NCBI GenBank assembly: GCA_003176045.1
Contig: PSRM01000010.1
Location: forward strand, 1-42,615
Length of the DNA stretch: 42,615 bases
Reading direction: 5' to 3'
Source of the DNA: Verrucomicrobiota bacterium
GTDB taxonomy: Bacteria > Verrucomicrobiota > Verrucomicrobiia > Limisphaerales > UBA8199
Shown one piece after another: positions 495 through 41,439 of the stretch (position 1 is the first letter of the stretch; each line of letters starts with the position of its first letter). The translations under genes were made by a program, and so were the position numbers. Under the pieces are notes generated by a model. It ran no database searches, was not told the DNA's origin, and saw nothing but the letters and a program-made list of their open reading frames with translations.

Positions 495-1088
495 CTAACG
501 GGCGTTCGATCGAAACTCGTTGAGAGCGTCACGCGCCATCTTGGCGACAAGCTGATCGTCTTCGCCTTTAGAATCCATCAGCTTCTTGAGATCGGTCCCC
601 CCTTCCCCAATCTGCTGTGCGAAATCCCAGGAGCCAAACCCGGCCGGCGCTACTGGCGACTGCGGCGGATTCAAAGCCTCGTACAGAAGCCGGCCGTCCT
701 CATGGCTGAGGATGCCTTTGGCTTCCATCATCTCCTCGATCTTCTTGATTCCCTCCGGAGTGTAGCGGTGATTCTTCCGGAGAGTTTCGCGGCCTGCCTC
801 ATAGGTCGATTTGAGCTGGCGGCGCTGCTCCTCCGCCTTCTGCTCCGCCTTCTCAGCATCGATCTTGGCCTGCACGTCGGCGAGTGACTGTTTCAGGCCG
901 CTGATCTCGTCATGCAGGGGCTTGGCCGCGTCCAGCTCAGGAATCGGAAGGTCAGGAAACGCTTCCTTCTGCGCCTGCTGCAGCAGCTTACGCGCCCCCG
1001 GCTTCTTGAGAATGCCGGCCAGCGTCGCCAGCGCGGACTGCTGCTGTTGATAGGCGACTTCGTCGACCTCGATCTGGACCTTGGCCAT
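495..1088 (-). CDS. Scaffold-like protein
   Basis: 197 residues from ATG 1088; a TTG one codon upstream is possible, but AAGGTGAG sits better for the ATG. The protein is highly charged. A long heptad-like, Lys/Glu/Gln-rich stretch (about residues 60-105) predicts coiled coil, and a helical C-terminal tail follows. It lies immediately before the capsid gene and after the portal, where head scaffolding proteins are normally found. Scaffolds guide capsid assembly and leave the mature head. The function is inferred from position and helical character; I recognise no catalytic motif, in particular no protease. Confidence 0.6.
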   Translation of the reverse strand: MAKVQIEVDEVAYQQQQSALATLAGILKKPGARKLLQQAQKEAFPDLPIPELDAAKPLHDEISGLKQSLADVQAKIDAEKAEQKAEEQRRQLKSTYEAGRETLRKNHRYTPEGIKKIEEMMEAKGILSHEDGRLLYEALNPPQSPVAPAGFGSWDFAQQIGEGGTDLKKLMDSKGEDDQLVAKMARDALNEFRSNAR

Positions 1089-1092
1089 CAAC

Positions 1093-1338
1093 TCACCTTC
1101 TCGTGGTCGGCGACACTATTGCAGAAAAATCGTATAAAGCGCCGGCCAACTTGTTTCTCAAGTCCGTTGGAATCAGCAAGCCTAGCGTAATCGCTTTGTT
1201 TAGAAGCCTGTCACACTCTGCTTGCGCTTTTTGCACCTCATTGAGATAAATCCATCGCTGGATATCAATCTCAATATCCGTAGGTTGCCGAGCTTCACTC
1301 GCATCAGCATAAGGCGTATGAAGCTCGGCGAGAGGCAT
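1093..1338 (-). CDS. Hypothetical protein in head operon
   Basis: 81 residues from ATG 1338, preceded by a GGAAG ribosome site. The stop is 4 bases before the scaffold-like start, so the two are probably translationally coupled. Acidic N-terminal half, with a helical middle containing YLNEVQKAQAECDRLLNK. No family recognised. Tight packing with both neighbours is the main reason to believe it is a gene. Confidence 0.55.
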   Translation of the reverse strand: MPLAELHTPYADASEARQPTDIEIDIQRWIYLNEVQKAQAECDRLLNKAITLGLLIPTDLRNKLAGALYDFSAIVSPTTRR

Positions 1339-1341
1339 CAA

Positions 1342-1524
1342 TCACTTCCCCGGCATCGTGCTGGCGTTCGGCACGTGCTCGATCGTCATCGCCTCCGATC
1401 GCGACTGTGCCGGCAGATGCGACTTGCGGCCACCGATGTCGATCTGCTCCATGTTGACCCGCACGATCTGTGGATCGCTCTTGGGGATCGAGCTGGCGCC
1501 GTTCTGAAAGATGTTGGACGGCAT
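1342..1524 (-). CDS. Hypothetical protein in head operon
   Basis: 60 residues if it starts at ATG 1524, which has AAAGGA at good spacing; an in-frame ATG at 1533 would leave no room for a ribosome site. Contains several Met and Asn and a basic stretch GGRKSHLPAQSRSE. The stop lies just before the next gene's start. Not recognised; small linker-type proteins between portal and capsid are common in such operons. Confidence 0.5.
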   Translation of the reverse strand: MPSNIFQNGASSIPKSDPQIVRVNMEQIDIGGRKSHLPAQSRSEAMTIEHVPNASTMPGK

Positions 1525-1525
1525 A

Positions 1526-1708
1526 TCAGTCATCCTTTCGAATGTTGGCCACGCCCATCGGATATTTCACGTTGCCGGGCAGCGGCGCATCGGTGGGAAA
1601 ACGGTCGCGATCGTCGAGCTTCGGCCGCATGTACGGCGCATCCCAGGGACGCTGCTCGCCGATCGGGCCGCGCGGCACTTCCTTGCATTCAAACAAACGG
1701 CGGCTCAT
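1526..1708 (-). CDS. Hypothetical protein in head operon
   Basis: 60 residues; ATG 1708 overlaps the stop of the upstream gene (ATGA) and its own stop is one base before ATG 1524, so it is embedded in a coupled chain. Pro, Asp and Arg are frequent (MRPKLDDRDRFPTDAPLP), which suggests a poorly structured, exposed peptide. No family recognised. Confidence 0.5.
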   Translation of the reverse strand: MSRRLFECKEVPRGPIGEQRPWDAPYMRPKLDDRDRFPTDAPLPGNVKYPMGVANIRKDD

Positions 1709-2127
1709 GACGGCTGCGCTCCCGGTTGCGGCGGCGCTCCCCCTGCCGGCGGGGCTTGCCCGCCTTGACGCAGCTGGGCCATCTGCTGACCCTGCTGCAG
1801 GTTCTTCATCTGCAGATTCGCCAGCGCGTTGCGCTCGGCGGCCGGCGTCACGTCCCCCGGCTGCACGTGCTTGGCCAGGATATTCAGGGCCTTGAGCACG
1901 TCGGCCCCTTCCGGCGAGCCCGCGCCCATCAACGGCAACAGCTGCTCCAGCTGACGCACCGCGACCGCGAGCCGTTGCTTGCCTGCCGCCTCATAGCCGA
2001 GATTCGGCGAAGGCGTGGTGGCCGGCGTCGCGCCCATGGGCGGCGGCTTTGGCCCGCCCGGCACCGGCGAGGCCGCGCCCGGCGGGGGAGGAGATCCGCC
2101 GGGCGTTGAGGTTGGCGTTTCCGCCAC
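1705..2127 (-). CDS. Pro/Ala/Gln-rich structural-type protein
   Basis: 140 residues from GTG 2127. The N-terminal 40 residues are a Pro/Gly/Thr-rich linker, the middle (about 45-90) looks helical (LAVAVRQLEQLLPLMGAGSP), and the C-terminal tail is Gln/Pro-rich. Such bipartite low-complexity proteins occur next to portal and capsid genes, but I cannot name a family. It overlaps the following gene by 4 bases. Likely a virion-associated or assembly protein, by position only. Confidence 0.55.
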   Translation of the reverse strand: MAETPTSTPGGSPPPPGAASPVPGGPKPPPMGATPATTPSPNLGYEAAGKQRLAVAVRQLEQLLPLMGAGSPEGADVLKALNILAKHVQPGDVTPAAERNALANLQMKNLQQGQQMAQLRQGGQAPPAGGAPPQPGAQPS

Positions 2128-2942: not shown

Positions 2943-4690
2943 CGCCGAGCCCCCTTCTTCGCCATGATCTTCTCCAGCGCCTCCGGATCGCGCTGGGCAA
3001 GCTCGCGCATGAGCTGGGCTTCTTTCTCCTCTTTCTCCCGAAGGCGCTTGTGCTTCATTTCCTTGTTGGGGAAGGGGAGATCGTCGATCGCATCGTGCTT
3101 ATCAACGATGCCAAGGCGAAGCCCGCCGACGATCAGCTGCTGGTGATCATCCATGAAGATCGGTGAGGACGAATGTGAATCGACGCTCACCCGCCGATCA
3201 TCAGGGATATCCGTCAGTAAGAACGACGTTTCTTCCATTGTTTTTACATTTTTGCCGTCCGTCCAATATTTTTTAGGATCCTTGGCTTCCATGATCGACA
3301 GGTGCTTGTCGCCAGCCGCCGCGCATTGCCGCTCAATCCGCAGTGACGTGTCTCGGAGCCGCGGCGAGCCGGTTTTCATCAAAGTGTTGGCGTGCACACC
3401 CGCCCGCACGCCAGATTCGCCCTTACCCTGCATGATCTCAGGGAAGCCCCCCAGCATGTTAATGACTTCGATCTGATTCTTGATCATTGGCAGCAGCTCA
3501 GCCGGGAAAGCCGGCGTCAAATCCTGTACGCTTGCGCCTTGATTCATATTGAAATATCCGTTCGCCTTGAATTCGCCATAGCGCTCATCTGTCAGCCCGT
3601 CAAAACCGGTGAAAGCCAACACTTTGTCAATCTGCTGCCCCATCAGATGCTCAGCGTCCGCCGTCCACATGGACAGCTGCCCTTGCGGCTTGATCAGGTC
3701 GGCCAGCTCCGAACGCCCCCAAATATAATTAGTTTCCTTATTCGCCTGAATAAGCGTATAAGGATGAAGTTTGCTCTGCGTCGCGCCGGGGATCATGAGG
3801 TTCTGCTTCTTCATAATCACATCATCGCCTTCAATGAATGCTGGGCTGATGATGATATCCGGCTCGATCATCTGAATTGTCGTGTAATCCGAATCGTCCT
3901 GAATCCACAGCTCGTGCATTTTCACGACATCAATTGCAATCTGCGGCCCGAACATGACATAATTCGGATCGTTGTTGAGCTGCACAATGCCGCCAGGGAT
4001 CGGCCGGGTGTTCTGCTGCACGCCAGTATTGAGCACCGCCGTCGATAGAACTGCATGAAAGAAGCTTGACGGCTCCTCACTCATCGCGCCTGGGCTGGCA
4101 TGCGCCTTGATTTGCTCAAAAAGCTGCTTGGCTTTCGGCAACCGGACGATACGCTGCCACACTTCCGGCAGGCTGAGCATCGAAGTCTCGCAAATCACCG
4201 CCTGCTTCGACAGGTCGGTTTCATCCTCCCGATACACGCCCATGTGCCAGGGCATGACCAGCTTGCGATGATAGACCGGCGACCGCTCCCAGCCGTCATA
4301 ATGCATCCACTGCTTAAGGAAACAGGCGCCGTATTTCAACGACTCAAAGACGCCTTGCCCAAATTCGATATCAGTGTCAGTGCGTTCGAAGCTCTTGGTC
4401 AGCAAATTGCTGACCCGGTTGGCCCGATTAAGCACTTCCATCGGATAGTCGTTCTCGAAATCAATTGAGAACTTCAAGTCAGTCGGTGAAAAAAGGTTGG
4501 ATGCCGTCCGATCGAGATGATGATACAGAAGGTTAATATTCGACCGGGTTCCGTCCTGTTGCCCCGTCTCGCAAAGCGTCGCGAACAGCCGGCAATAGCT
4601 TGCGCGGATTCCCGCTGACACCCGGCACTTCTCAATGAGATCGTTGGCAAACTTGATCAGCTCACGCCTGCGCGTCGGGACCTGCAACAT
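2939..4690 (-). CDS. Portal protein
   Basis: 583 residues, ATG 4690. Portal proteins form the dodecameric ring through which terminase packs DNA. Supporting features are the length, the position directly downstream of the terminase block and upstream of scaffold and capsid, and family-like segments such as NLLYHHLDRTASNLFSP, FGQGVFESLKYGACFLKQW, WGRSELADLIKPQGQLS and AGVHANTLMKTGSPRLRD. The C-terminus is Lys/Glu-rich (KRLREKEEKEAQ), common for portals. No nuclease or ATPase motif competes with this call. Confidence 0.8.
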   Translation of the reverse strand: MLQVPTRRRELIKFANDLIEKCRVSAGIRASYCRLFATLCETGQQDGTRSNINLLYHHLDRTASNLFSPTDLKFSIDFENDYPMEVLNRANRVSNLLTKSFERTDTDIEFGQGVFESLKYGACFLKQWMHYDGWERSPVYHRKLVMPWHMGVYREDETDLSKQAVICETSMLSLPEVWQRIVRLPKAKQLFEQIKAHASPGAMSEEPSSFFHAVLSTAVLNTGVQQNTRPIPGGIVQLNNDPNYVMFGPQIAIDVVKMHELWIQDDSDYTTIQMIEPDIIISPAFIEGDDVIMKKQNLMIPGATQSKLHPYTLIQANKETNYIWGRSELADLIKPQGQLSMWTADAEHLMGQQIDKVLAFTGFDGLTDERYGEFKANGYFNMNQGASVQDLTPAFPAELLPMIKNQIEVINMLGGFPEIMQGKGESGVRAGVHANTLMKTGSPRLRDTSLRIERQCAAAGDKHLSIMEAKDPKKYWTDGKNVKTMEETSFLLTDIPDDRRVSVDSHSSSPIFMDDHQQLIVGGLRLGIVDKHDAIDDLPFPNKEMKHKRLREKEEKEAQLMRELAQRDPEALEKIMAKKGARR

Positions 4691-4692
4691 GA

Positions 4693-5250
4693 CTACACCC
4701 TTGGCCGATAATTCGGCTGCTGCGTTTCCAAGGTCGGATTTTCATTCTGAAACGCTTTCGCGTGCGGCGCAAACCGGCCGTGTTCCCGCCGGATCGCCTG
4801 TTGCACCCGCACCCCGGCATTCGGGAATGGGCCGGACTGCACATCCGGGCTCGTCATCACCGCCTGATGGCCGAGATTGAACCCGACCTGCGGCGCAGTC
4901 GGGTTCGCCTGCATATACTGATGCACCTGATTGTTCGAATCGATCGCCGGGGCCGCGATGTCACCTTCATGCATCCCATCGCGCATGTTGGTGATACGCA
5001 GCCCAGTCTCAGCCGGCGTCACACCCATAAGCTCGGCCGCCATCTGCGCCCGCATCTCCGATCCCGCCTCCTGATCACGATAATGCTGGTCATTATTCTT
5101 GGTTTTGGCGCTGATCACGCCCGGCAACACCGGCGCCGCATCATCGTCCACCGCCGTATCGTGCCCGCACAAGGGGCAGAAACGCGGCCACTCCCGCCCT
5201 TCATGGACGAAGCGCTTGTGGCAGGCGTCACATTCCAGCTTGTAGATCAT
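4693..5250 (-). CDS. Zinc-ribbon protein between terminase and portal
   Basis: 185 residues. The N-terminus has two Cys pairs (CDACHKRFVHEGREWPRFC and CPLC), a likely zinc ribbon of about 30 residues. The remainder is charged and probably disordered, ending NPTLETQQPNYRPRV. It overlaps the terminase stop by 4 bases and ends 3 bases from the portal start, so the three are one translational unit. A packaging or connector accessory role fits the position but is inference. Confidence 0.6.
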   Translation of the reverse strand: MIYKLECDACHKRFVHEGREWPRFCPLCGHDTAVDDDAAPVLPGVISAKTKNNDQHYRDQEAGSEMRAQMAAELMGVTPAETGLRITNMRDGMHEGDIAAPAIDSNNQVHQYMQANPTAPQVGFNLGHQAVMTSPDVQSGPFPNAGVRVQQAIRREHGRFAPHAKAFQNENPTLETQQPNYRPRV

Positions 5251-7220
5251 CGCATTCCCCGTGGTGCCCGCGGCGCGCGCGGCTTACGCGGTGTTCGCAT
5301 CGCCCGCCGGCCACGTAAGAATTGCAACTGCGCATTCCTGCGATCAGCTTCCTTCTGCGAGAAAAAGGACGACATCATATTCTGATTGAACAAAGCAACA
5401 GCGTTAGAAACGCTCATTTTTTCCTTGTTTTCCTCAAATTCCCGCGTGCGACGGAGCGAGGAAAGAGTTCGACGCACGCGATCCCTCCAGCACCGAATGC
5501 CGATCGCGAGCGCAACCACCCGATCATCTTTTTTCTTGCCCTGCGCTTCGATCTTATCCTCCTCGCGGGTGACCGCCTTCATCTCTGTAATTGTGTCCAT
5601 CGATCGAATATGCAGCTGACCATTCGACACAAAGTCGCGAAGCCCTTCCATGAGCCGAACCTTGCCGGTTGGACCTGGGCCGGGCGTGGTTTTCCACTGG
5701 AACGATCCGCCTCCATGTCCGATGGCATCGGGACGCACGTAAATATAGTTCCGTACATTGTTGAAGACATTAAATAGCCCTTTCTCCATGATTTGTGTCG
5801 GTTGATAGCCCGATTGAACATGCGAGCGAAGATGAACGATCTCATCCCAAACCGAAGCCCCCGGTCCATTCAGCTCGATGATCAGATAAACATCGTTAGC
5901 GCCGTCTTGCGCGTACCACGCCGCGATCGCCATGATAACCCAGGCGAATTGCCGGGTGTTGATCAGCGGCCACGCATATTCCGCTTCCTGATCCGCACCG
6001 TCAGCAAAGCAACGCAGAACTTGGACCGACGATCGGTCATTTTTCTCACTTGACCCAAACGCCACGTCCGCCGAGACGATATAGACCGCGCCGGATTTGT
6101 GTGGCGGCTGCCACACCTTGAATTCCACCGACTTAGGTGTTGGCGCTCGCCACACCCTCATATCCGTAAATTCAAGGCCGCAGGTGAACATATACGTTTC
6201 AAATTTCTTGCTAACAAATTTATTCCATTGATTGGTAAGATCCTCCGGAGCAAAGAAGACCGATCCGGTCATTTGCCATGATTCATCCTCGACCCACGGC
6301 TGCTCCTGTATTCGTGTCGCCGAGCCCTCATACTCTGCCGGCACGTCCCCTTCCGGCTCAGCATTGGGATCCATCTTGCGCCGAATCCACGCCAGCTGCT
6401 CGGGCGTGATCTCGTGATCGTACAGCTCCTTGACCTTGCGGATCTTCTCCAGCTCGCGCCGCGTCGGAGGCTGTAGGCCATACCGCTTGAAATCCGGATC
6501 GTCCCGATCAATCGATTGGCTGGGCTTCGACCACCAGCCAAGGAAAATACAGAAGCAGTGCGCCGTGTCCTTGCGCGCTTCCTCCCACATATCCTGCCAG
6601 GAATTCGGCCCGCGCGCCGTCGATTCGTAAATATACAGTCGCTCTGGATTCACCTCCGACAGCGATTGCTCAAAAGCCTCCAAGCCCTCATCATTCTCAT
6701 ACGAGCACAGCTCGGAAAGATGGGCGAACGACAGACCGACCGATCGGCCAAGCGTCCCGCTCGACTTCGACGCCCGCACGCCCGCCGACATGAACAGCAT
6801 GCGCGCGTCATTGGACAGCGTGAGGCCATCGCGGTTGGTCGGCGGCTTGATCCGGGGAAACTGAAGATCAACGGGAAGATCCCGGATCATCGTCTCGATC
6901 TCGGACCGGCCCGCTTTCTTGTTGAAATCCGTATCCATCACCAGAGCCCCGCCAAGGCCCTTGTGCGTTCCAAGATAAAACAGGCTGAGAGCGCGGGCGA
7001 TCGTCGAGATGCCGAGCTGGCGAGACTTCAGAACATAAACCCGGTGAATCCCCCGCTCCAGCGCATCAAAGACGCCGGTGATAAAACGGATCTGGCCGTC
7101 ATACAGATTCTCGCCAAGGCAAGTGTTGGCACCGAGATCCTTGGAATTGATGAAACAATGATCGAGGAAGACGTAAAACGCCTCCTCAAACGCCTGCCGA
7201 TACTCCCGTGTCCAACCCAT
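5247..7220 (-). CDS. terL: Terminase large subunit
   Basis: 657 residues, the DNA-packaging motor. The N-terminal ATPase has a Walker A-like KSRQLGIST at about 65-73 and a Walker B segment LSFAHLSEL near 162-170. The C-terminal RNase H-fold nuclease shows YIVSADVAFG (first acidic residue), LIIELNGPG, and near residue 580 KKDDRVVALAIGI, the usual last acidic motif. Length is normal for the family. I find no small-terminase gene adjacent; it may be one of the unnamed small genes at 7262-8240 or lie elsewhere. Confidence 0.92.
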   Translation of the reverse strand: MGWTREYRQAFEEAFYVFLDHCFINSKDLGANTCLGENLYDGQIRFITGVFDALERGIHRVYVLKSRQLGISTIARALSLFYLGTHKGLGGALVMDTDFNKKAGRSEIETMIRDLPVDLQFPRIKPPTNRDGLTLSNDARMLFMSAGVRASKSSGTLGRSVGLSFAHLSELCSYENDEGLEAFEQSLSEVNPERLYIYESTARGPNSWQDMWEEARKDTAHCFCIFLGWWSKPSQSIDRDDPDFKRYGLQPPTRRELEKIRKVKELYDHEITPEQLAWIRRKMDPNAEPEGDVPAEYEGSATRIQEQPWVEDESWQMTGSVFFAPEDLTNQWNKFVSKKFETYMFTCGLEFTDMRVWRAPTPKSVEFKVWQPPHKSGAVYIVSADVAFGSSEKNDRSSVQVLRCFADGADQEAEYAWPLINTRQFAWVIMAIAAWYAQDGANDVYLIIELNGPGASVWDEIVHLRSHVQSGYQPTQIMEKGLFNVFNNVRNYIYVRPDAIGHGGGSFQWKTTPGPGPTGKVRLMEGLRDFVSNGQLHIRSMDTITEMKAVTREEDKIEAQGKKKDDRVVALAIGIRCWRDRVRRTLSSLRRTREFEENKEKMSVSNAVALFNQNMMSSFFSQKEADRRNAQLQFLRGRRAMRTPRKPRAPRAPRGMR

Positions 7221-27684: not shown

Positions 27685-30468
27685 TCGTGACCCTGGACTT
27701 TTGAGTCTTATTTCACTGACGAATACAGCTTGAAAAAGAGCCGGTTCTTTGATTTGCAGGGGACCGAGCAGCCGATGTCGACCGAAGCCTATTTGCGTGA
27801 TGAGCGTTTCGAGATTCATGGCTGCGCGGTGAAGATCAACCGCGGTGAAACGCTTTGGTATGACAAGATCCAATTCGAGAAATTGACCAAGCAGATTGAT
27901 TGGTCGGACACTTGCGTGGTGTGTCATCACGCGCAATTCGACTGCGGAATTTTAGCTTTCCACTATGACGTGCGGCCGAAGCTCATTTGCTGCACTTTGG
28001 CCATGGCTCGACTGCTGATCGGGAACCACGTCAGCGTCAGCCTGGAAAGCGTGCGCGGGTTCTTCGGCTTGCCGAGTAAGACCACGCCTTATAACATTTT
28101 CAAAAACAAGCGATGGTTCCAGCTGACACCCTGGGAACAGCGGAAGGTCGCTGAGGGCGCAATCGACGAAGTCAATTCCGTCGATTTGATTTTCCAAAAA
28201 CTTGTTTTTGGGGATGATACGCGAAAAATTTCGCCGTTCCCGCAAGAAGAATACGCGCTCGTCGACATGACCATCCGGCATTTTACCCAGCCAGTCATCG
28301 TCGGCGACACCGCGCTCTATGCCGACATCTGGCGTGAAGAGGAAGCGAAGAAAGGCGAGCGGCGGCGGGCGCTGGTTGAGCAAGGGTTTTCTGAGCTGGC
28401 GGACAGTGAGCACCTGCAAAGCAATGAGAAATTCGCCGAGCTGCTTCGCCGTGCCGGGGTTGAGCCGGAATACAAGACGTCTCCGACCGATCCGGAGAAG
28501 GAAATCTATGCCTTCGCCAAGACCGATGAGTTCATGGAAAGCTTGTTGGCTGGCGAGCAGGGCGAGCTGGCGCAGGAGCTGGTCGCGGCGCGGCTGGGCG
28601 AGAAGTCGACTTTGTTGCAGACGCGGTCGGAGATCATGGGCTGGTCGTCTGCGCGGGGGCCGATGCCGATTTATCTGCGCTATGCCGGCACGCATGTGTT
28701 GCGCTGGTCAGGTGGCGATCGGGCCAACTGGCAAAACATGCCGCGTGGGCATCGGATCAGGCAGGGGATGCGCGCGCCGCCGGGATTCCTGTTTGGATCG
28801 GTTGACGGCTCGCAAATGCATCCTCGGATCGCTTGCACGATCAGCGGGCAATGGGACAAGGTCGAGACGTTCCGGCGAAACGAAAGTCCGTATCTTGAAA
28901 CTGGGGAGAGCTGGTACGGCTACAAAGTGACCAAAAAGCATACGCCGCTGGAATATTCCGCCAGCAAAATCGTGTATCTGTCGGCGCAATTCGGTGCGGG
29001 CGCGGTGACGCTGCAGTCGCGTCTGCGCACGTCAGACCCGCCGGTGCTGGTGAGCCTGGAGCGCGCCGACGAAGGCAAGATGGCGTACCGGCGGACCCAT
29101 CCGAGGGTCGAAGACGCCTGGACATATTGCCAGAAAGTTATTTTGCCGGCGCTGGCGAACGGCACTGAGATGGACTGGGGGCCGATCCACGTTGCTGATC
29201 ATCGTATTTGGTTGCCGAATGGGTGCCCAATCCTGTATGACAGCCTGGAGTGGTGCCCCGGCACACAGGAGGATGAGGAGCGCGGGTGGCGTATGCGCAC
29301 CAGGAAAGGGTGGACGCGCTACTGGGGTTCGAAATTGTTTCAGAACTGCTTGGAAGGCCAGACATTAGTATTGACACCAGATGGCTGGGTGCCTATCGTC
29401 GATGTTGGATCTCGTCAAGTATGGGATGGCGAAGAATGGGTTTCGCATCTCGGCCTTGTTGAGCAAGGCGTTCGGGAAACGATTGATTTTGAAGGCGTAT
29501 TCATGACGCCTGATCATAAGGTGATGACGCTTCATGGCTGGGTACGGGCAGCATTCGCGAAAGGACTATACCGGCTTCCGGTCAGGTTACCTGACGGCGT
29601 TACGGGATGTTGGTTCCGATGGCAAGCATCGGCTTTGGGCTGTGCACTGCGCCGGCTGCGGCAAAGAATTAATACTTCGTGGAAAACAAATATCTTATTA
29701 TCAATCTTGTGGGTGCAAGAAAAACGAATTGATTGGAAAAAAACGTTTTCGGCACGGAATGTCGCATCATCCCGCGTATGCTGTATGGGATTCTATGCTT
29801 GCTCGATGCTTGACCAAGACACACAAGGCTTGGAAAAATTACGGTGGTCGCGGAATAACGGTTTGCGACCGATGGCTAGATTTTCAAAAATTTTGGGACG
29901 ATATGGGCGAATCTTATCAAACTGGATTGACTATAGATCGCCGGAACAACGATCAAGGGTATTTCAAACAAAATTGCTATTGGGCTTCTCGCAGAGTGCA
30001 GGCCAACAACAAGAGAAATACCATTTTTATCGAGACTCCTTGGGGGCGGTTGCCTTTAGCTCAAGCAGCGCGCAAAGCCGGATTGACTGTATCGAAAGTG
30101 CGCCAGCGCGTGAGCAAGGGATGGCCTCCCGAAAGATGGTTCGAAGGAAGCCCGTTTACGATCTCGCTAACTGTGGCCCCCGTCGACGATTCGTCGTCTT
30201 AGGAAACCGCGGGCCGATCATAGTGCATAACTGCGTCATAGCTTTGGAGCGGGTGCTGATGGGGCAGGCGATGCTTCGGATCCGCGAGGCCGGCGTGTGG
30301 ATCATGGGGAATGCGCACGATGAGATTTGGGTCTTGATCCCCAAGGGGAACGACCAGGAGAAGATCCTGCAATTCTGCATTGATGAAGTGCGGAGGGTGC
30401 CTAGCTGGCTTCCTCAGATTCCCCTGAATGCCGAGGGTGAGATGGGAGAGATTTATGAGAAAAAGTGA
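27678..30468 (+). CDS. polA: Family A DNA polymerase with intein; N-terminus needs a +1 shift
   Basis: GTG 27678 has AAAGGAGG at ideal spacing and starts MLIVTLDF, but a TGA follows at 27702-27704. Skipping one T in the TTTT run at 27699-27702 continues ESYFTDEYSLKKS and then the long frame (27730 onward). The joined N-terminus LIVTLDFESYFTDEYSLKK is the standard start of phage PolA and contains exonuclease motif I (D-x-E). Further motifs are Exo II HHAQFD, Exo III YALVDMTIRHF, Pol A VDGSQMHPRIA, Pol B-like SASKIVYLSAQFGAGA and Pol C GNAHDEIW. The host protein is interrupted by an intein after KLFQN (29347-30231), between motifs B and C. Without the shift, translation from TTG 27730 would lack motif I. 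Confidence 0.85.
29347..30231 (+). mobile_element. Intein in the DNA polymerase
   Basis: 295 residues. Cys1 starts block A (CLEGQTLVLTPDGWV), block B holds T-P-D-H in VFMTPDHKVMTLHGW, block F is VYDLANCGPRRRFVV, and block G ends IIVHN before Cys+1 of the extein. All splicing residues of a class 1 intein are present. Exteins rejoin as SKLFQN-CVIALERV, a well-conserved polymerase helix. The roughly 190 residues between the Hint halves do not look like protein in this frame, because the DNA there encodes an endonuclease in the +1 frame. Confidence 0.9.
29534..30202 (+). CDS. HNH-type homing endonuclease nested out of frame in the intein
   Basis: 222 residues in the frame +1 to the polymerase. 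An N-terminal zinc element is YTGFRSGYLTALRDVGSDGK, AVHCAGCGKELI and QSCGC. The core is HPAYAVWDSMLARC, YGGRGITVCDRWLDFQKFW, LTIDRRNNDQGYFKQNCYWA, RRVQANNKRNT. A C-terminal DNA-binding helix follows (LAQAARKAGLTVSKVRQRVS, GWPPERW). This matches the H-x3-Y-x-W...YGGRGI...ID...N-C-x-W endonuclease family common in phages. Internal ATG 29534 has only a weak AAGG 15 bases upstream. The region is more AT-rich than the polymerase, which suggests transfer. Both frames are open over the full length. Confidence 0.85.
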   Translation: MAGYGQHSRKDYTGFRSGYLTALRDVGSDGKHRLWAVHCAGCGKELILRGKQISYYQSCGCKKNELIGKKRFRHGMSHHPAYAVWDSMLARCLTKTHKAWKNYGGRGITVCDRWLDFQKFWDDMGESYQTGLTIDRRNNDQGYFKQNCYWASRRVQANNKRNTIFIETPWGRLPLAQAARKAGLTVSKVRQRVSKGWPPERWFEGSPFTISLTVAPVDDSSS

Positions 30469-32514: not shown

Positions 32515-33612
32515 ATGCTACCCACTGTGAAGACTACACCCGAACCGCTCGACGATGCAAGCGCGCTCGCTGAGCTGAGTGAACGCGGCATGATCGAGAC
32601 TTCGCATTCCGAGCTGGCGCGGCGCTGGGGCTGGTCCCGGTTCCGCGTCGCGCGCAAGCTCAAGGACTGGGCTGCGGCCGGGCTCATCACCCGGTCGAGT
32701 ACCCGCGGCGGGCAGCGCACCGTGATCAATGTTTTAGTATTACAAAATGCCCCTGCTCAACCCCGCTCAGGTGGCGCTCAGGTGGCGCTCAGGTGGTGCT
32801 CACCCCTGCGCCTGGGCGCCGCGCTGATGGCGGCGATCGGGCTTGCCGTGGCGTATTACGGGGTGCGCATAAACGCTTGGTACGGCAGCAGTCTTGGCCG
32901 CACCAGCGAGGCTGCCGCGCTGCTCGCCGGGCTCAGTGCAGTGGGTGATCTGGTTGCGCTCACCTCCCCGACAGTGGCGCAGGTGCTGTGGCGGCACCGG
33001 CGGCGATTCGAGGCGGCGATCGGCGGGCTCCTGTGGGTGGTGACGAGCGGGGTGGCGGTGCTCGCCGCGGTCGGCTTCGCTGCCGTCAATATCGCCGACT
33101 CGACGGCCGGGCGTGATCAGGCGGCGTCGGCACGGGGCGTGCTGGTCGACCGGCTGGCCGGGCTGCAGGCGCAGCGGCGGGCGATCGGCGAGCTGCGGCC
33201 GGTGCGTGTCCTGGAAGCCGAGCTGCAGGCGGCGCAGGCGACCGCGGCGGCAGTCTGGCGGGTGACGGCGGGGTGCCTGGACATCACCCGGGCGCACTCG
33301 GCCGAGGCGTGCTCGCCGGTAATCAGGGCGCGCGAGCTGGTGGCGACGGCGCAGACGCGCGACCGGATCGACGCTGAGATGGACGAGCTGGCGGCGCGGC
33401 TCGCGGCGAGCCCGGCCGTCACCGTCGCCGATCCGCAGGCCCAGACCGCGGCTGAGATGCTGAGCTGGCTGACCGGCCGTCCGGTGCTCGCGCACGATAT
33501 CGGACTGACCCGGCTGCTCGGGATGACCTTGCTTCCTCAGATGGCTGGGCTAGTATTACTGATGGCTTCGGCGCTTTGGCAAATTGGGAGGATGGAATGT
33601 CAAGCAAGCTGA
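32515..33612 (+). CDS. Membrane protein with cytoplasmic winged-helix domain
   Basis: 365 residues. Residues 18-75 form a winged helix (TSHSELARRWGWSRFRVARK, LKDWAAAGLITRSSTRGGQR). A Pro/Gln linker follows, then TM segments near 95-115 (ALMAAIGLAVAYYGVRIN), 128-150 and 168-190 (LLWVVTSGVAVLAAVGFAAV). A long Ala/Arg-rich coiled coil (205-310) and a last TM segment near 345 (LPQMAGLVLLMASALW) complete it. DNA binding plus membrane anchoring suggests tethering of phage DNA or a sensor. I do not know a characterised homologue. The start could be a little further downstream. Confidence 0.65.
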   Translation: MLPTVKTTPEPLDDASALAELSERGMIETSHSELARRWGWSRFRVARKLKDWAAAGLITRSSTRGGQRTVINVLVLQNAPAQPRSGGAQVALRWCSPLRLGAALMAAIGLAVAYYGVRINAWYGSSLGRTSEAAALLAGLSAVGDLVALTSPTVAQVLWRHRRRFEAAIGGLLWVVTSGVAVLAAVGFAAVNIADSTAGRDQAASARGVLVDRLAGLQAQRRAIGELRPVRVLEAELQAAQATAAAVWRVTAGCLDITRAHSAEACSPVIRARELVATAQTRDRIDAEMDELAARLAASPAVTVADPQAQTAAEMLSWLTGRPVLAHDIGLTRLLGMTLLPQMAGLVLLMASALWQIGRMECQAS

Positions 33613-37665: not shown

Positions 37666-39168
37666 ATGAATGACCCAAACGCATATGGCCATCTCATAGG
37701 TGGCGAGCGCCGGCAGCTCGGCGCAAAGGCGACGGAGAAGCTCGGCGCCCCGCCGGTCGCCTATATCTCGATCCGCGGGCCGGCTGGAGTAGGACAATTC
37801 ACGCTGTTCGACACCGCCGGCCAGTCCAAAGCCGTCACCACTTTCGGCCAGATCCGGCCGAATGATCCCCAGTCGCCAGTTGGCAATTACCTCGATGCCG
37901 TACTGGTCGACGCGGGCGACAATGTCTCGCGCGCCTACTATCCGGAGGAATTCGACAACAACCCGGCGGAATGGCTGCCCCCCGCGTGCTGGTCCGACAA
38001 CGGCGTTGGCCCCAGCGTCAATTGCAGTGAGCCGCAGGCGGCGACGTGCCGGCCGGGCCAGGGGCCGGGCGAATGCCGGTGGGCGGTGTGGGGCTCGCGG
38101 ATCTCGAATATGGGCAGCGAGGTGCCGGCGTGCAGCCAGCTCCTCAAGCTGGCCTGGGTCGTGCCTGGGCTCGGCTTCCCGATGCCGTTTCTGCTGCGCA
38201 TGAAGGGATCGAGCTGGAAGAACTGGAAGGCGTATGTGACGCGGGTTCAGGGCCAGCAAATCGGCGGGCGCAAGCTCGATCCGACCGACGTGATCACCCG
38301 GATGTTTTTCGTCGGCACCGGGATTCTCGATTTCGTGTGGGCCGGCATCGTCGATCCGCAGACGGCCGAGTGGCAACGGCAGCTCTGGTCGACCAACGCC
38401 ACCGATTCCATGGTTGGCCGGCTCGATCAGCCGCGGCAGGTGGCTCTGCCGGCGCCCATGACTACGGCGCAGGGCTATGAGCAACTGATGCACAATCCCG
38501 CTCCGCCCGCCGCCGTGACTTACCACCCGCCTGCGCCAGGGCCGCAGAGTTTTGGCGCAGCGCCGACCAGCCACCATGCCGGCCATGTGCCATCGCTGCA
38601 GGGTCAGGCGGGTTTTGGTGGGGTGCCGCAGGGTCAGGCGGGTTTTGGTGGGGTGCCGCAGGGCCAGCAGAGCTTCGGTGCGCCGCCAACGCCCCAGCCG
38701 CCCCCGCCGCAGAATCCGGGTTTCGGTCAGCAAGGCGCCGCCCCGCAGCCGGCTCAGCAGCAGCTGGGCTTTGGTCAAGGACAAGCGCCGCAACCACAAC
38801 AGCCGGCTCAGCAGCAGGCCCGGAAGCGCCGCGGCCGACGCTCCAATGCCGATATCGCTGCTGCGGCAGCAGCGCAGGGAGCGCCTGCACCGGCCGCGCA
38901 GCAGCAAGCGCCGAACCCGCCTCCGCCGAATCAGCCGGCCTTCAACCCCAACCCGCCGCCCGCAACGGGGGCACCAGCTGGGCAGGGGTTCGGCGGCATG
39001 CCGGACATGCCCGCCACGTTGATTCGCCCCGAAGCCGCGGGCGCGGTGGCCGCGAGTCAACAGCCTGGGGGCGGCACTCAGCCGGCCTTCGGCATGGCGG
39101 CAGGTCAGCAACCCGGTGCTGATTTGATGCGTGCGCTGCAGGCCCAAATGGGCAATCCGCCGGGCTGA
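37666..39168 (+). CDS. SSB-like phage protein with long low-complexity tail
   Basis: 500 residues from ATG 37666. The N-terminal 280 residues look like the zinc-containing single-strand-binding-type proteins of phage replication operons: CSEPQAATCRPGQGPGECRW Cys cluster, SQLLKLAWVVPGLGFPMPFL, RMKGSSWKNWKAYVTRVQGQ. The C-terminal 210 residues are Pro/Gln/Ala/Gly-rich with FG/FGQ units and a basic KRRGRRSNADIAAAAAA island, so disordered and possibly phase-separating or protein-binding. SSBs often carry such tails. The SSB identity is inferred from Cys pattern, position and tail. Confidence 0.6.
   Translation: MNDPNAYGHLIGGERRQLGAKATEKLGAPPVAYISIRGPAGVGQFTLFDTAGQSKAVTTFGQIRPNDPQSPVGNYLDAVLVDAGDNVSRAYYPEEFDNNPAEWLPPACWSDNGVGPSVNCSEPQAATCRPGQGPGECRWAVWGSRISNMGSEVPACSQLLKLAWVVPGLGFPMPFLLRMKGSSWKNWKAYVTRVQGQQIGGRKLDPTDVITRMFFVGTGILDFVWAGIVDPQTAEWQRQLWSTNATDSMVGRLDQPRQVALPAPMTTAQGYEQLMHNPAPPAAVTYHPPAPGPQSFGAAPTSHHAGHVPSLQGQAGFGGVPQGQAGFGGVPQGQQSFGAPPTPQPPPPQNPGFGQQGAAPQPAQQQLGFGQGQAPQPQQPAQQQARKRRGRRSNADIAAAAAAQGAPAPAAQQQAPNPPPPNQPAFNPNPPPATGAPAGQGFGGMPDMPATLIRPEAAGAVAASQQPGGGTQPAFGMAAGQQPGADLMRALQAQMGNPPG
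38599..38658 (+). repeat. Two perfect 30-base tandem repeats in the SSB-like tail
   Basis: CAGGGTCAGGCGGGTTTTGG plus 10 bases occurs twice in direct succession (38599-38628, 38629-38658), encoding QGQAGFGGVP each time, then a diverged third start. Exact identity implies recent duplication by slippage. Confidence 0.85.
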
Positions 39169-39179
39169 GAAAAGAGGTG

Positions 39180-39256
39180 TTGACAAAGGCATCAAATCAG
39201 TAGTACAGATGCCCTTGTGGACTGCAGGAGATGCGATGAAATTTACCGGTGGTGTT
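39180..39256 (+). promoter_or_regulatory. Promoter candidate for the Y-RNA-like array
   Basis: Perfect TTGACA at 39180-39185 with GTACAG/TACAGA 17-18 bases downstream, the latter part of TAGTAGTACAG (39201-39208), the recurring control motif. Transcription would start near 39,215. A 16-codon frame with AGGAG at 39226 (ATG 39236) runs into the first RNA module; it may be fortuitous. Confidence 0.5.
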
Positions 39257-39372
39257 GGTCGCGGTTACTTCGTAGCTCATTGGTAGAGCATCAGAACAGC
39301 AATCTGAGGGTAGCCGGCTTCGAAACCGGCCGAACCCCCGAAAGGGGGATAACCCGTGACCAGATGTTCCCC
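39257..39372 (+). ncRNA. Y-RNA-like module 1 with normal-order tRNA-like fold
   Basis: Basal stem GGTCGCGGTT (39257-39266) pairs with AACCCGTGACC (39351-39361), one bulged C and one G-U. Then TACTTCG overlaps a short TTCG/CGAA stem. Inside are a D arm GCTC-ATTGGTA-GAGC (39275-39289), an anticodon-like arm TCAGA-ACAGCAA-TCTGA (39291-39307) and a T-like arm GCCGG-CTTCGAAA-CCGGC (39313-39330). A hairpin CCCCC-GAAA-GGGGG (39335-39348) and trailing GTTCCCC (39366-39372) complete it. C replaces U33 and the acceptor is only 4 bp, so it is a tRNA mimic, not a tRNA. Position before a Ro60 gene indicates a Y RNA. Confidence 0.75.
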
Positions 39373-39397
39373 GGTTCGAGTTTTGGTGGGTGGTGTA

Positions 39398-39517
39398 GAG
39401 CGAGCTTACTTCGCATGGAGCGAGGAGGAAGCTAGGTTCGAATCCTAGCCAGCCCGGCAATCGGGCTGTAGCTCAATGGTAGAGCGCCTAACGGACAGCC
39501 TGCTCGAATGTTCCCCC
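39398..39517 (+). ncRNA. YrlA-like Y RNA with circularly permuted tRNA module
   Basis: Basal stem GAGCGAGCT (39398-39406) pairs with AGCCTGCTC (39497-39505), with one A-C mismatch and the same G-U. Then TACTTCG. The head is a permuted tRNA: T arm GCTAGG-TTCGAAT-CCTAGC (39431-39449), acceptor 3' strand CAGCCCG (39450-39456), loop GCAAT, acceptor 5' strand CGGGCTG (39462-39468), U8-A9, then D arm GCTC-AATGGTA-GAGC (39471-39485). The perfect 7-bp closed acceptor stem and canonical T loop show strong selection. Where a tRNA would have its anticodon arm, the basal Ro60-binding stem emerges, the architecture of bacterial YrlA RNAs. Ends with GTTCCCCC (39510-39517). Confidence 0.82.
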
Positions 39518-39544
39518 ATCGAGATGAAATATGCAGGTGATGAA

Positions 39545-39604
39545 GATCGGAGATACTTCGCCTGTCATGTAGGTGTACTAAGCCTCTCTGATCGAGCGTT
39601 CCCC
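39545..39604 (+). ncRNA. Y-RNA-like module 3, minimal
   Basis: Basal stem GATCGGAGA (39545-39553) pairs with TCTCTGATC (39585-39593), 9 bp including the G-U at the same position. TACTTCG follows the first strand and GTTCCCC (39598-39604) follows the second, exactly as in modules 1 and 2. The head is only a small hairpin (GCCT / AGGT type), with no tRNA-like arms. It lies 38 bases before ATG 39642 and could serve as a Ro60 decoy or an autoregulatory site in the leader. Confidence 0.65.
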
Positions 39605-39641
39605 TGTGTATTCGACGTGGTTTTTCCCGGAGGATACTGAA

Positions 39642-41049: not shown

Positions 41050-41439
41050 ATGAACGACGAAACACCGATGCTCGCCGCGCCGCCAGCCGCCGAAGTTTCC
41101 AGCCCCAGTCCGGCCGCGCCCAAGAAGGCGCGCAAGAAGCCGGCGAAGGCCAAGGCTATGCCCAAGAAGGCGGCGCGGTCGAGCGCTCGCAAGCCGGTGA
41201 AGGCCAAGGCGACCAGCCGGCCGAAGAAAGCCGTCAAGGCCAAAGGTCCGGCACGGGTCGAGTGGTCGAAGGAAGATGTGCGGCGAATGAAGACCGAATT
41301 CCCGACCACGCCTGACGTGGCGCGATTCGCCCGCTCGCTCAAGCGGTCGCCGGGCTCGGTCTATCAGAAGGCGTATGCGCTTGGCGTTCGCCGGAAGAAC
41401 AACAATCGCGGCGGCCCGCGCAAACGGCGCCGCGCCTGA
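41050..41439 (+). CDS. Histone-H1-like protein with Myb/homeodomain-like C-terminus
   Basis: 129 residues, ATG 41050, 4 bases after the Ro60 stop. Residues 10-75 are Lys/Ala/Pro-rich in KKAxKK style (AAPKKARKKPAKAKAMPKKA), typical of H1/HctB-like DNA-condensing tails. Residues 78-120 (VEWSKEDVRRMKTEFPTTPD, VARFARSLKRSPGSVYQKAY ALGV) look like a SANT/Myb helix set: W, then three helices ending in K-A-x-x-L-G. It ends in a basic RGGPRKRRRA. Probably binds DNA or RNA; co-transcription with Ro60 may be meaningful. Confidence 0.7.
   Translation: MNDETPMLAAPPAAEVSSPSPAAPKKARKKPAKAKAMPKKAARSSARKPVKAKATSRPKKAVKAKGPARVEWSKEDVRRMKTEFPTTPDVARFARSLKRSPGSVYQKAYALGVRRKNNNRGGPRKRRRA

Follow-up and report, generated by a model that had tools for sequence, protein, structure and literature searches.

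A survey attributed to Chen in 2014 reportedly placed likely Y RNAs close to Ro60 in over 250 species of bacteria and phages, at least one of them tRNA-like in each species. In YrlA (Rfam RF02553), the two ends of the RNA form a stem; UAC lies past its 5' strand and its 3' strand contains CUUGU, both of which recur in the consensus of the phage modules described below. This stem carries a permuted tRNA-like head in the order T arm, acceptor, D arm, in which the acceptor is closed. The stem tethers Rsr and the tRNA-like domain, for which D, T and acceptor arms are named, binds PNPase, as described in PMC8394870. Permuted tRNA-like Y RNAs next to Ro60 are known, phages included (PMC7765460 and PMC12282133). 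In Listeria phage CKA15, three highly transcribed RNAs, located no more than 2 kb from an Rsr-like gene, were proposed to be Y RNAs (PMC12282133); they resemble the locus studied here by their description, and the TROVE gene of crAss001 is described as early (PMC10136315). The Ro60 of Thermus phage phiLo is also phage encoded, but it is represented by a protein structure only (PDB: 9l5y), and an open-access literature search by those names returned nothing on this protein or its RNAs. YrlA also occurs in tandem in bacteria: the model finds five copies in one bacterial array (G251/L059) and three in another (L053), in which a fourth was seen by eye. The heads of these two arrays resemble different tRNAs, and one L059 copy has a short CTGTTAA-loop hairpin at the place of the anticodon arm.

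The window, by which we mean the whole stretch of 42,615 nucleotides analyzed, is contig 3 of a 7.7 Mb Verrucomicrobiota assembly of 372 contigs. Judged by its predicted proteins, the element is a phage or prophage, as the first-pass annotation had it: it encodes portal-like (27.9% identity) and terminase-like (36% identity) proteins, it has an integrase family match, and Pfam and PHROG searches gave phage replication proteins. The phage Ro60 gene that had been noted downstream of the array was also upheld. Its product matches the Pfam TROVE domain (E 9.8e-12, 45.2 bits against a cut-off of 23), PHROG_850 (E 1.1e-47) and, by profile, the Ro60 chains 9l5y, 1yvp and 2nvo. An AlphaFold model (pLDDT 82, pTM 0.77) has the Ro60 fold, with TM-scores of about 0.6–0.7 to 9kop, 9l5y, 1yvp and 2nvo; the top Foldseek matches were 9kop (TROVE domain, E 1.8e-18) and the phiLo protein 9l5y (E 9.0e-17), followed by animal Ro60 and Deinococcus Rsr. 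Residues D320, S322 and S324 of the DxSxS motif are invariant across 28 sequences. No relative of this Ro60 was found in the 12 other genomes of the same family that were searched. The protein immediately 5' of the array has a Pro/Gln-rich tail, short internal repeats and one weak PHROG match, and the one straight after Ro60 has no match in Pfam or PHROG searches; a scan of viral contigs gave no relatives for the protein at 32515-33612.

Table 1. Coordinates of features in the window and in comparison loci. E-values of the home-made RNA models R2 and R3 are rough by the tool's own statement.
Feature	Position	Strand	Basis
Module 1, Y-RNA-like, normal-order tRNA head	39246-39373	+	R2 69.8 bits, E 2.4e-12, full length
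Module 1 Y stem 5' strand GGTCGCGG	39257-39264	+	sequence; covariation in alignments A3, A4
Module 1 acceptor stub 5' strand TTCG (likely)	39269-39272	+	pairs with CGAA; TTCT/AGAA counterpart in L164, L167 second copies
Module 1 D arm	39275-39289	+	sequence; RF00005 alignment
Module 1 anticodon arm, loop ACAGCAA	39291-39307	+	stem 5/5 pairs changed on both sides in A4
Module 1 T arm	39313-39330	+	stem 4/5 pairs changed on both sides in A4
Module 1 acceptor stub 3' strand CGAA (likely)	39331-39334	+	pairs with TTCG 39269-39272
Module 1 extra hairpin CCCCC-GAAA-GGGGG	39335-39348	+	fold; alignment A4
Module 1 Y stem 3' strand CCGTGACC	39354-39361	+	sequence; 8/8 pairs with GGTCGCGG
Module 2, Y-RNA-like, permuted tRNA head	39387-39517	+	R3 77.5 bits, E 1.2e-18
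Module 2 Y stem 5' strand GAGCGAGC	39398-39405	+	sequence; R3 alignment
Module 2 anticodon-like hairpin TTCGC-ATGGA-GCGAG (degenerate, 5-nt loop)	39410-39424	+	sequence
Module 2 T arm	39431-39449	+	YrlA alignment
Module 2 acceptor stem, closed by GCAAT loop	39450-39468	+	YrlA alignment
Module 2 D arm	39471-39485	+	YrlA alignment
Module 2 Y stem 3' strand GCCTGCTC	39498-39505	+	7/8 pairs with GAGCGAGC; pair 6 A-C
Module 3, Y-RNA-like, minimal hairpin head	39534-39605	+	R3 28.4 bits, E 7.8e-6; fold z -3.0
Module 3 Y stem 5' strand GATCGGAG	39545-39552	+	sequence
Module 3 Y stem 3' strand CTCTGATC	39586-39593	+	8/8 pairs with GATCGGAG
Ro60 gene (TROVE + von Willebrand A), 467 aa	39642-41045	+	Pfam, PHROG, Foldseek
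500-aa protein 5' of array	37666-39168		
129-aa protein after Ro60	41050-41439		
Open-acceptor site, L007	about 3700-3880		
Open-acceptor site, L013	about 1480-1670		
Open-acceptor site, L209	about 5130-5330		
Open-acceptor sites, L212	about 3910-4240		
Open-acceptor site, L236	about 1020-1220		
Open-acceptor site, L255	about 6290-6490		
Bacterial YrlA array, L059	about 1200-2000		five copies by model
Bacterial YrlA array, L053	950-1620		three copies by model, fourth by eye
Annotated tRNA-Thr, L047 (10KY502B)	3792-3859		overlaps Y-RNA model match
Annotated tRNA-Ser, L045 (Gurke)	3766-3840		overlaps Y-RNA model match
Annotated tRNA-Tyr and tRNA-Lys, L252 (csAssE-Sib)	4666-4738 and 4811-4884		overlap Y-RNA model matches

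Sequence analysis confirmed that 39246-39605 is predicted to hold three tandem Y-RNA-like modules before the phage Ro60 gene, and their anatomy, as laid out in Table 1, is almost certainly right. The first-pass annotation had confined them to 39257..39604, which is too short because the flanks conserved in the consensus belong to the modules. Gaps of 13 and 16 bases separate modules 1 and 2 and modules 2 and 3, and 36 bases lie between module 3 and the Ro60 start codon. The common plan held in most details. Eight-pair strands account for the stem in modules 1 and 3, but the ninth pair claimed for all three is absent in module 1, and module 2 has A-C at pair 6. As had been described, the first four pairs differ between modules (GGTC/GACC, GAGC/GCTC, GATC/GATC), pair 5 is G-U in every copy, TACTTCG starts one base past the 8-nt 5' strand and GTTCCCC begins 4 bases past the 3' strand, all of which can be read from the sequence; the three kinds of head, normal-order, permuted and minimal, are likewise supported. 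The modules thus have a conserved stem made of the 5' and 3' ends and lie near Ro60, as Y RNAs in the broad sense do. Covariation among three copies had been called strong evidence for RNA function; three copies alone are thin, and the case rests instead on the comparison of 240 modules given below.

Two models built from other contigs only, without the window, were searched against it. The normal-order model, R2, from which near relatives of the window had also been left out, matched module 1 and nothing else, at 69.8 bits, and the permuted model, R3, matched modules 2, 1 and 3 at 77.5, 34.1 and 28.4 bits and had no other match. The scores of modules 1 and 3 with R3 are not diagnostic alone because R3 gives 32–39 bits at four other places in the assembly (G000 contigs C244, C292, C331 and C294; L246-L248), possibly neighboring tRNAs. 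The checks suggested by the first-pass annotation gave mixed results: minimum-energy folds suit modules 1 and 3 but not module 2, and with the Rfam models, module 2 fell below the YrlA gathering score and module 1 matched tRNA only. A promoter and terminator scan of the window found no consensus promoter or terminator for the array. Module-like matches at window positions 30250 (31.3) and 37132 (18.9), from a pairing-assisted scan, were taken as chance.

The head of module 2 runs anticodon-like hairpin, T arm, closed acceptor, D arm, so that the YrlA order of T arm, closed acceptor and D arm is recovered, as supported by the RF02553 alignment, R3 and rotation. The stem sequence differs from that of YrlA, and the module scores 30.2 bits against RF02553, below the gathering score of 69. 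When 288 genomes were scanned with RF02553, 72 had a match and 4 were above the cut-off; many of the low-scoring matches may be tandem ordinary tRNAs. Single-sequence folding does not set module 2 apart from its shuffles, of which 25 in 200 did as well (z -1.2), and the Y stem is absent from its minimum-energy fold.

ARAGORN calls the module 2 head a tRNA only once it has been rotated, and the same rotation, which opens the closed acceptor, made 42 of 56 heads (68–130 nt) recognizable as tRNAs, against none of the 56 unrotated, none in each of five shuffles and none reversed. A wider rotation turned 82 of 116 heads of 60–150 nt into tRNAs and none of the 116 in each of three shuffles; these heads comprised 114 from the scan (113 distinct) and two added by hand, the last module of L022 (positive) and a repeat head of L024 (negative). 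Among 81 rotation-positive heads, the T-loop TTCRA is kept in 79 and a D arm with GG in 72, the acceptor strands pair at -11.2 kcal/mol compared with -5.5 when shuffled, and the acceptor closing loop is GCAA, GAAA, TTCG or GTAA in 36. In an alignment of 16 permuted modules made without the window, 93.7% of cells are paired and the covariation score is 0.494, compared with 0.056–0.174 when slid; the weakest helix is the anticodon-like stem (77% of cells paired).

Module 1 differs from YrlA in that its arms follow the normal order of D, anticodon and T, an order foreign to the YrlA family and not included in the Rfam model. In this it resembles tRNA, and over 39269-39334 it scores 30.5 bits against RF00005, reaching the Rfam tRNA gathering score of 29. 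In place of a seven-pair acceptor and a free CCA end, it has a 3–4 bp stub that runs into the Y stem; the anticodon loop has C at position 33 where U is usual, and ARAGORN called no tRNA in the window. An exact pattern for the normal-order join matched 14 viral contigs. Three are the contigs of L115, L118 and L121; nine of the other 11 encode a Ro60 relative (23–28% identity) in the stretch fetched, and in two (L163 and L168) the fetched stretch has none. Thirteen normal-order modules from 13 contigs were aligned (A4); 95.9% of cells are paired, 13 of 19 pairs have both sides changed, and the covariation score reaches 0.621, compared with 0.038–0.148 when slid. Compensatory changes fall in the Y, anticodon and T stems. 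The stub is paired in 89.6% of cells, and because its compensatory change (TTCT/AGAA) was found in two related sequences only, we consider this predicted helix likely and not certain. The extra GNRA hairpin of module 1 is missing in some relatives and is optional.

Some caution applies to the scores of this form. Ordinary tRNAs match normal-order models, R1 and its like match many of them, and with R2 they reach 65 bits as partial matches in other loci; part of the 69.8 bits of module 1 is therefore plain tRNA likeness, and the R2 score by itself is no proof of the Y part. A graft test, in which the head is placed on an artificial acceptor, was positive for 11 of 127 heads, some of them not normal-order, compared with 0–2 in ten shuffles, and is less specific than rotation. 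The rotation test had also pointed to a second circular permutation in module 1 (D, anticodon, T, then an acceptor hairpin); this was withdrawn as not established because the TTCG/CGAA stub has its compensatory TTCT/AGAA and the extra hairpin is optional. In the last module of L022, the order is ambiguous in the same way.

The gathering score reached by module 1, together with the ARAGORN tRNA calls on normal-order modules of other phages, raises the question of whether such modules are remnants of ordinary tRNA genes with no function of their own. We give this explanation, already disfavored, almost no weight: ARAGORN made no call in the window, the Y, anticodon and T stems carry compensatory changes, and the modules recur next to Ro60 in distant phages.

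The head of module 3 is a plain hairpin, and heads of less than 50 nt are frequent (113 of 240). Of the heads, 133 fall short of 68 nt, and 40 of these begin with a clean hairpin whose loop has 7 nt. Some minimal heads appear to resemble anticodon arms alone, because 34 of these 40 have T33 and 35 have a purine at 37. An anticodon-like arm also stands at the start of 42 of 79 rotation-positive heads, whereas the Rfam YrlA consensus has none. In a separate count, a 5-pair hairpin with a 7-nt loop was present at the anticodon-like place in 39 of 109 modules, compared with 10–21 when the 3' strand was slid. Among heads of 68 nt or more, 37 of 107 open with a clean 7-nt-loop hairpin, with T33 in 29, a purine at 37 in 33 and T36 in 19. 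The anticodon-like loops of permuted heads often end in U36-A37-A38, with positions 34 and 35 varying, and these endings could reflect t6A-type recognition. The normal-order heads in A4 carry the anticodons GTT, GAT, GCA, TTT, TGA, TGT, GAA and others.

Ro60 loci for the survey were taken from viral contigs (relatives being the best 80 of 464), genomes and named phages; named duplicates and then six near-duplicates were dropped (119 to 113 loci). The scan used a two-strand weight matrix with no pairing term; the matrix had been trained on the window, L001-L047 and similar loci, and pairing energy entered at that stage. The pairing-assisted training scan gave nine reverse-strand matches when its threshold was lowest, and one of these exceeded 24. 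In a first pairing-free scan, 35 of 50 loci had modules, 109 in total, without a reverse-strand match, and own stems paired better than shuffled ones (z -29). Over 113 distinct loci (938 kb), the wider pairing-free scan found 240 modules, 238 upstream of Ro60, two downstream and none on the reverse strand. Stem pairing in these averaged -12.1 kcal/mol compared with -5.5 for shuffled partners (z -42), and the own partner beat the average within-locus swap in 96% of 226 modules. The circularity of training with pairing energy is answered by 64 loci outside training, in whose 133 modules the result stands (-11.9 compared with -5.5, z -31, none of 500 shuffles as low); the stems, whose absence from related phages was to have counted against an RNA, are thus conserved.

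In 104 distinct loci, 900 nt or more of upstream sequence was available; 90 of them have at least one module, 76 at least two, and one has eight. Outside training, a module was present in 55 of the 58 loci with enough upstream sequence. With these matrices, no upstream module was found in 14 of the 104 (L002, L031, L039-L042, L044, L049-L052, L096, L116 and L150). At least two of these, L002 and L050, are misses, as modules appear by other scans, the modules of L049 lie downstream, and L039-L042 and L044 belong to the shorter or partial genome matches; others may truly lack modules. Upstream position is not universal, since L164, L167 and L171 have some modules downstream of Ro60. In 15 of 91 loci, the 130 nt preceding the first module contain a promoter-like TTGAC/TAnnnT, compared with a shuffled mean of 0.7, one of 90 further upstream and none of 92 within Ro60.

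The last module ends a median of 61 nt before the start of the Ro60 match and the reverse strand is empty, an arrangement that would suit a cis-acting leader in the Ro60 mRNA through which Ro60 binding regulates its own expression. We consider this improbable, because a locus may hold as many as eight modules with heads that vary inside an array, and because the modules of L049, and part of those of L164, L167 and L171, lie downstream of the gene.

In 54 of 93 loci with modules, short and tRNA-like heads coexist, in 29 no head was classed as tRNA-like, and the window alone has both a normal-order and a permuted module. Outside this set, the two forms occur together in L164, L167 and L171, which are related to one another, in L175 and in csAssE-Sib. 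In the first four, a normal-order module is followed about 13–16 bases on by a permuted one, as in the window; csAssE-Sib has one permuted and two normal-order modules directly before Ro60. The permuted members of all five became tRNAs when rotated and never did in ten shuffles each. By these sequence comparisons, the mixed layout is common to distant phages. The mixed array had been thought undescribed: the mixture is not unique, as it recurs in these five other phages, but our searches of an open-access library did not turn up the normal-order head on a Ro60 stem, its co-occurrence with the permuted head in diverged phages, permuted heads that bear anticodon arms or the open-acceptor form described next.

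This last form was found in L007, L013, L209, L212 (two), L236 and crAss001 (also L052), with the order acceptor, D arm, Y 3' strand, short loop, Y 5' strand, anticodon side, T arm, acceptor. The Ro60 stem thus sits as a closed hairpin inside a tRNA, inserted where the D arm would be followed by the anticodon arm. The two matrix blocks are 1–6 nt apart, the modules are ARAGORN positive once the insert is removed (a result without shuffle control), and CCA is encoded in L007 and L013; scan rows with 13–23 nt between the blocks were set aside as tandem neighbors. In our reading, the open-acceptor form is the same RNA whose ends have shifted position. Taken further, phage Y RNAs might be five-arm RNAs, made of a tRNA body with a Ro60-binding stem as extra arm grafted into the central junction, on the D/anticodon or the acceptor side, whose ends moved in evolution: the ends would lie at the Ro60 stem in window module 2 and YrlA, and at the acceptor, with the Ro60 stem closed, in L007, L013, L209, L212, L236 and crAss001. 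Panels with different anticodon arms held on Ro60 could then be bait for host tRNA-acting enzymes. We offer this extended reading tentatively, as a possibility that we would not yet back.

Sequence comparison establishes the predicted anatomy of the modules, their head architectures, the covariation and the linkage to Ro60. What they do is best explained, with somewhat better than even confidence, by predicted Y RNAs that dock on Ro60 by their stem and bring host tRNA-binding proteins to it through interchangeable heads. The array would be transcribed into three such RNAs, and their common stem very probably binds Ro60, docking on the ring encoded next to it as YrlA is described to do on Rsr (PMC8394870). 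The heads (normal-order tRNA, permuted tRNA or bare hairpin) would be the handles, an adaptor role that, argued by analogy, we hold to be evenly balanced. PNPase is the leading candidate partner, by analogy with Deinococcus and YrlA, and tRNA-modifying enzymes or tRNA-cleaving defense enzymes are the alternatives; the phage might in this way build a RYPER-like particle in which variation of the head gives variation of the partner. An adaptor for PNPase alone leaves the kept anticodon arms unexplained because the known PNPase tether, as PMC8394870 names its parts, has D, T and acceptor arms only. The retained and varied arms suggest a partner that reads them, which would make modification enzymes or tRNA nucleases the better candidates in part of the family.

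The same arms could instead make the modules tRNA decoys, with Ro60 carrying a set of mimics, each with its own anticodon arm, on which anticodon nucleases and further enzymes that attack tRNA would be spent while the phage infects; Hughes 2020 (PMC7790460) names competitive inhibition of the anticodon nuclease as a possibility for YrlA. The arm is kept and varied (in 42 of 79 rotation-positive heads, and among 37 long heads with clean hairpins, 29 have T33 and 33 a purine at 37) and normal-order heads carry varied anticodons, but the loops of this phage itself are degenerate, with C33 in module 1 and a 5-nt loop in module 2, and in 29 of 93 loci no head was classed as tRNA-like. We regard decoys as unlikely, though worth keeping in view. 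With several kinds of head on one Ro60 stem, and anticodon-like arms often retained, the purpose of phage Ro60 can be put to the test in cultured phages, among them Caulobacter phage CcrPW with its eight modules (L048).

In bacterial Y RNAs, tRNA mimicry goes beyond the one permuted form that Rfam models, with normal, permuted and minimal heads on one stem, and tRNA annotation misreads some phage Y-RNA-like modules as tRNA genes. Annotated tRNAs of phages 10KY502B, Gurke and csAssE-Sib overlap Y-RNA model matches (Table 1), the 10KY502B module having been part of the R3 training set. In L169, ARAGORN makes 38 tRNA calls in 13.5 kb, and at least one of them (1002-1075) is a normal-order Y-RNA module.
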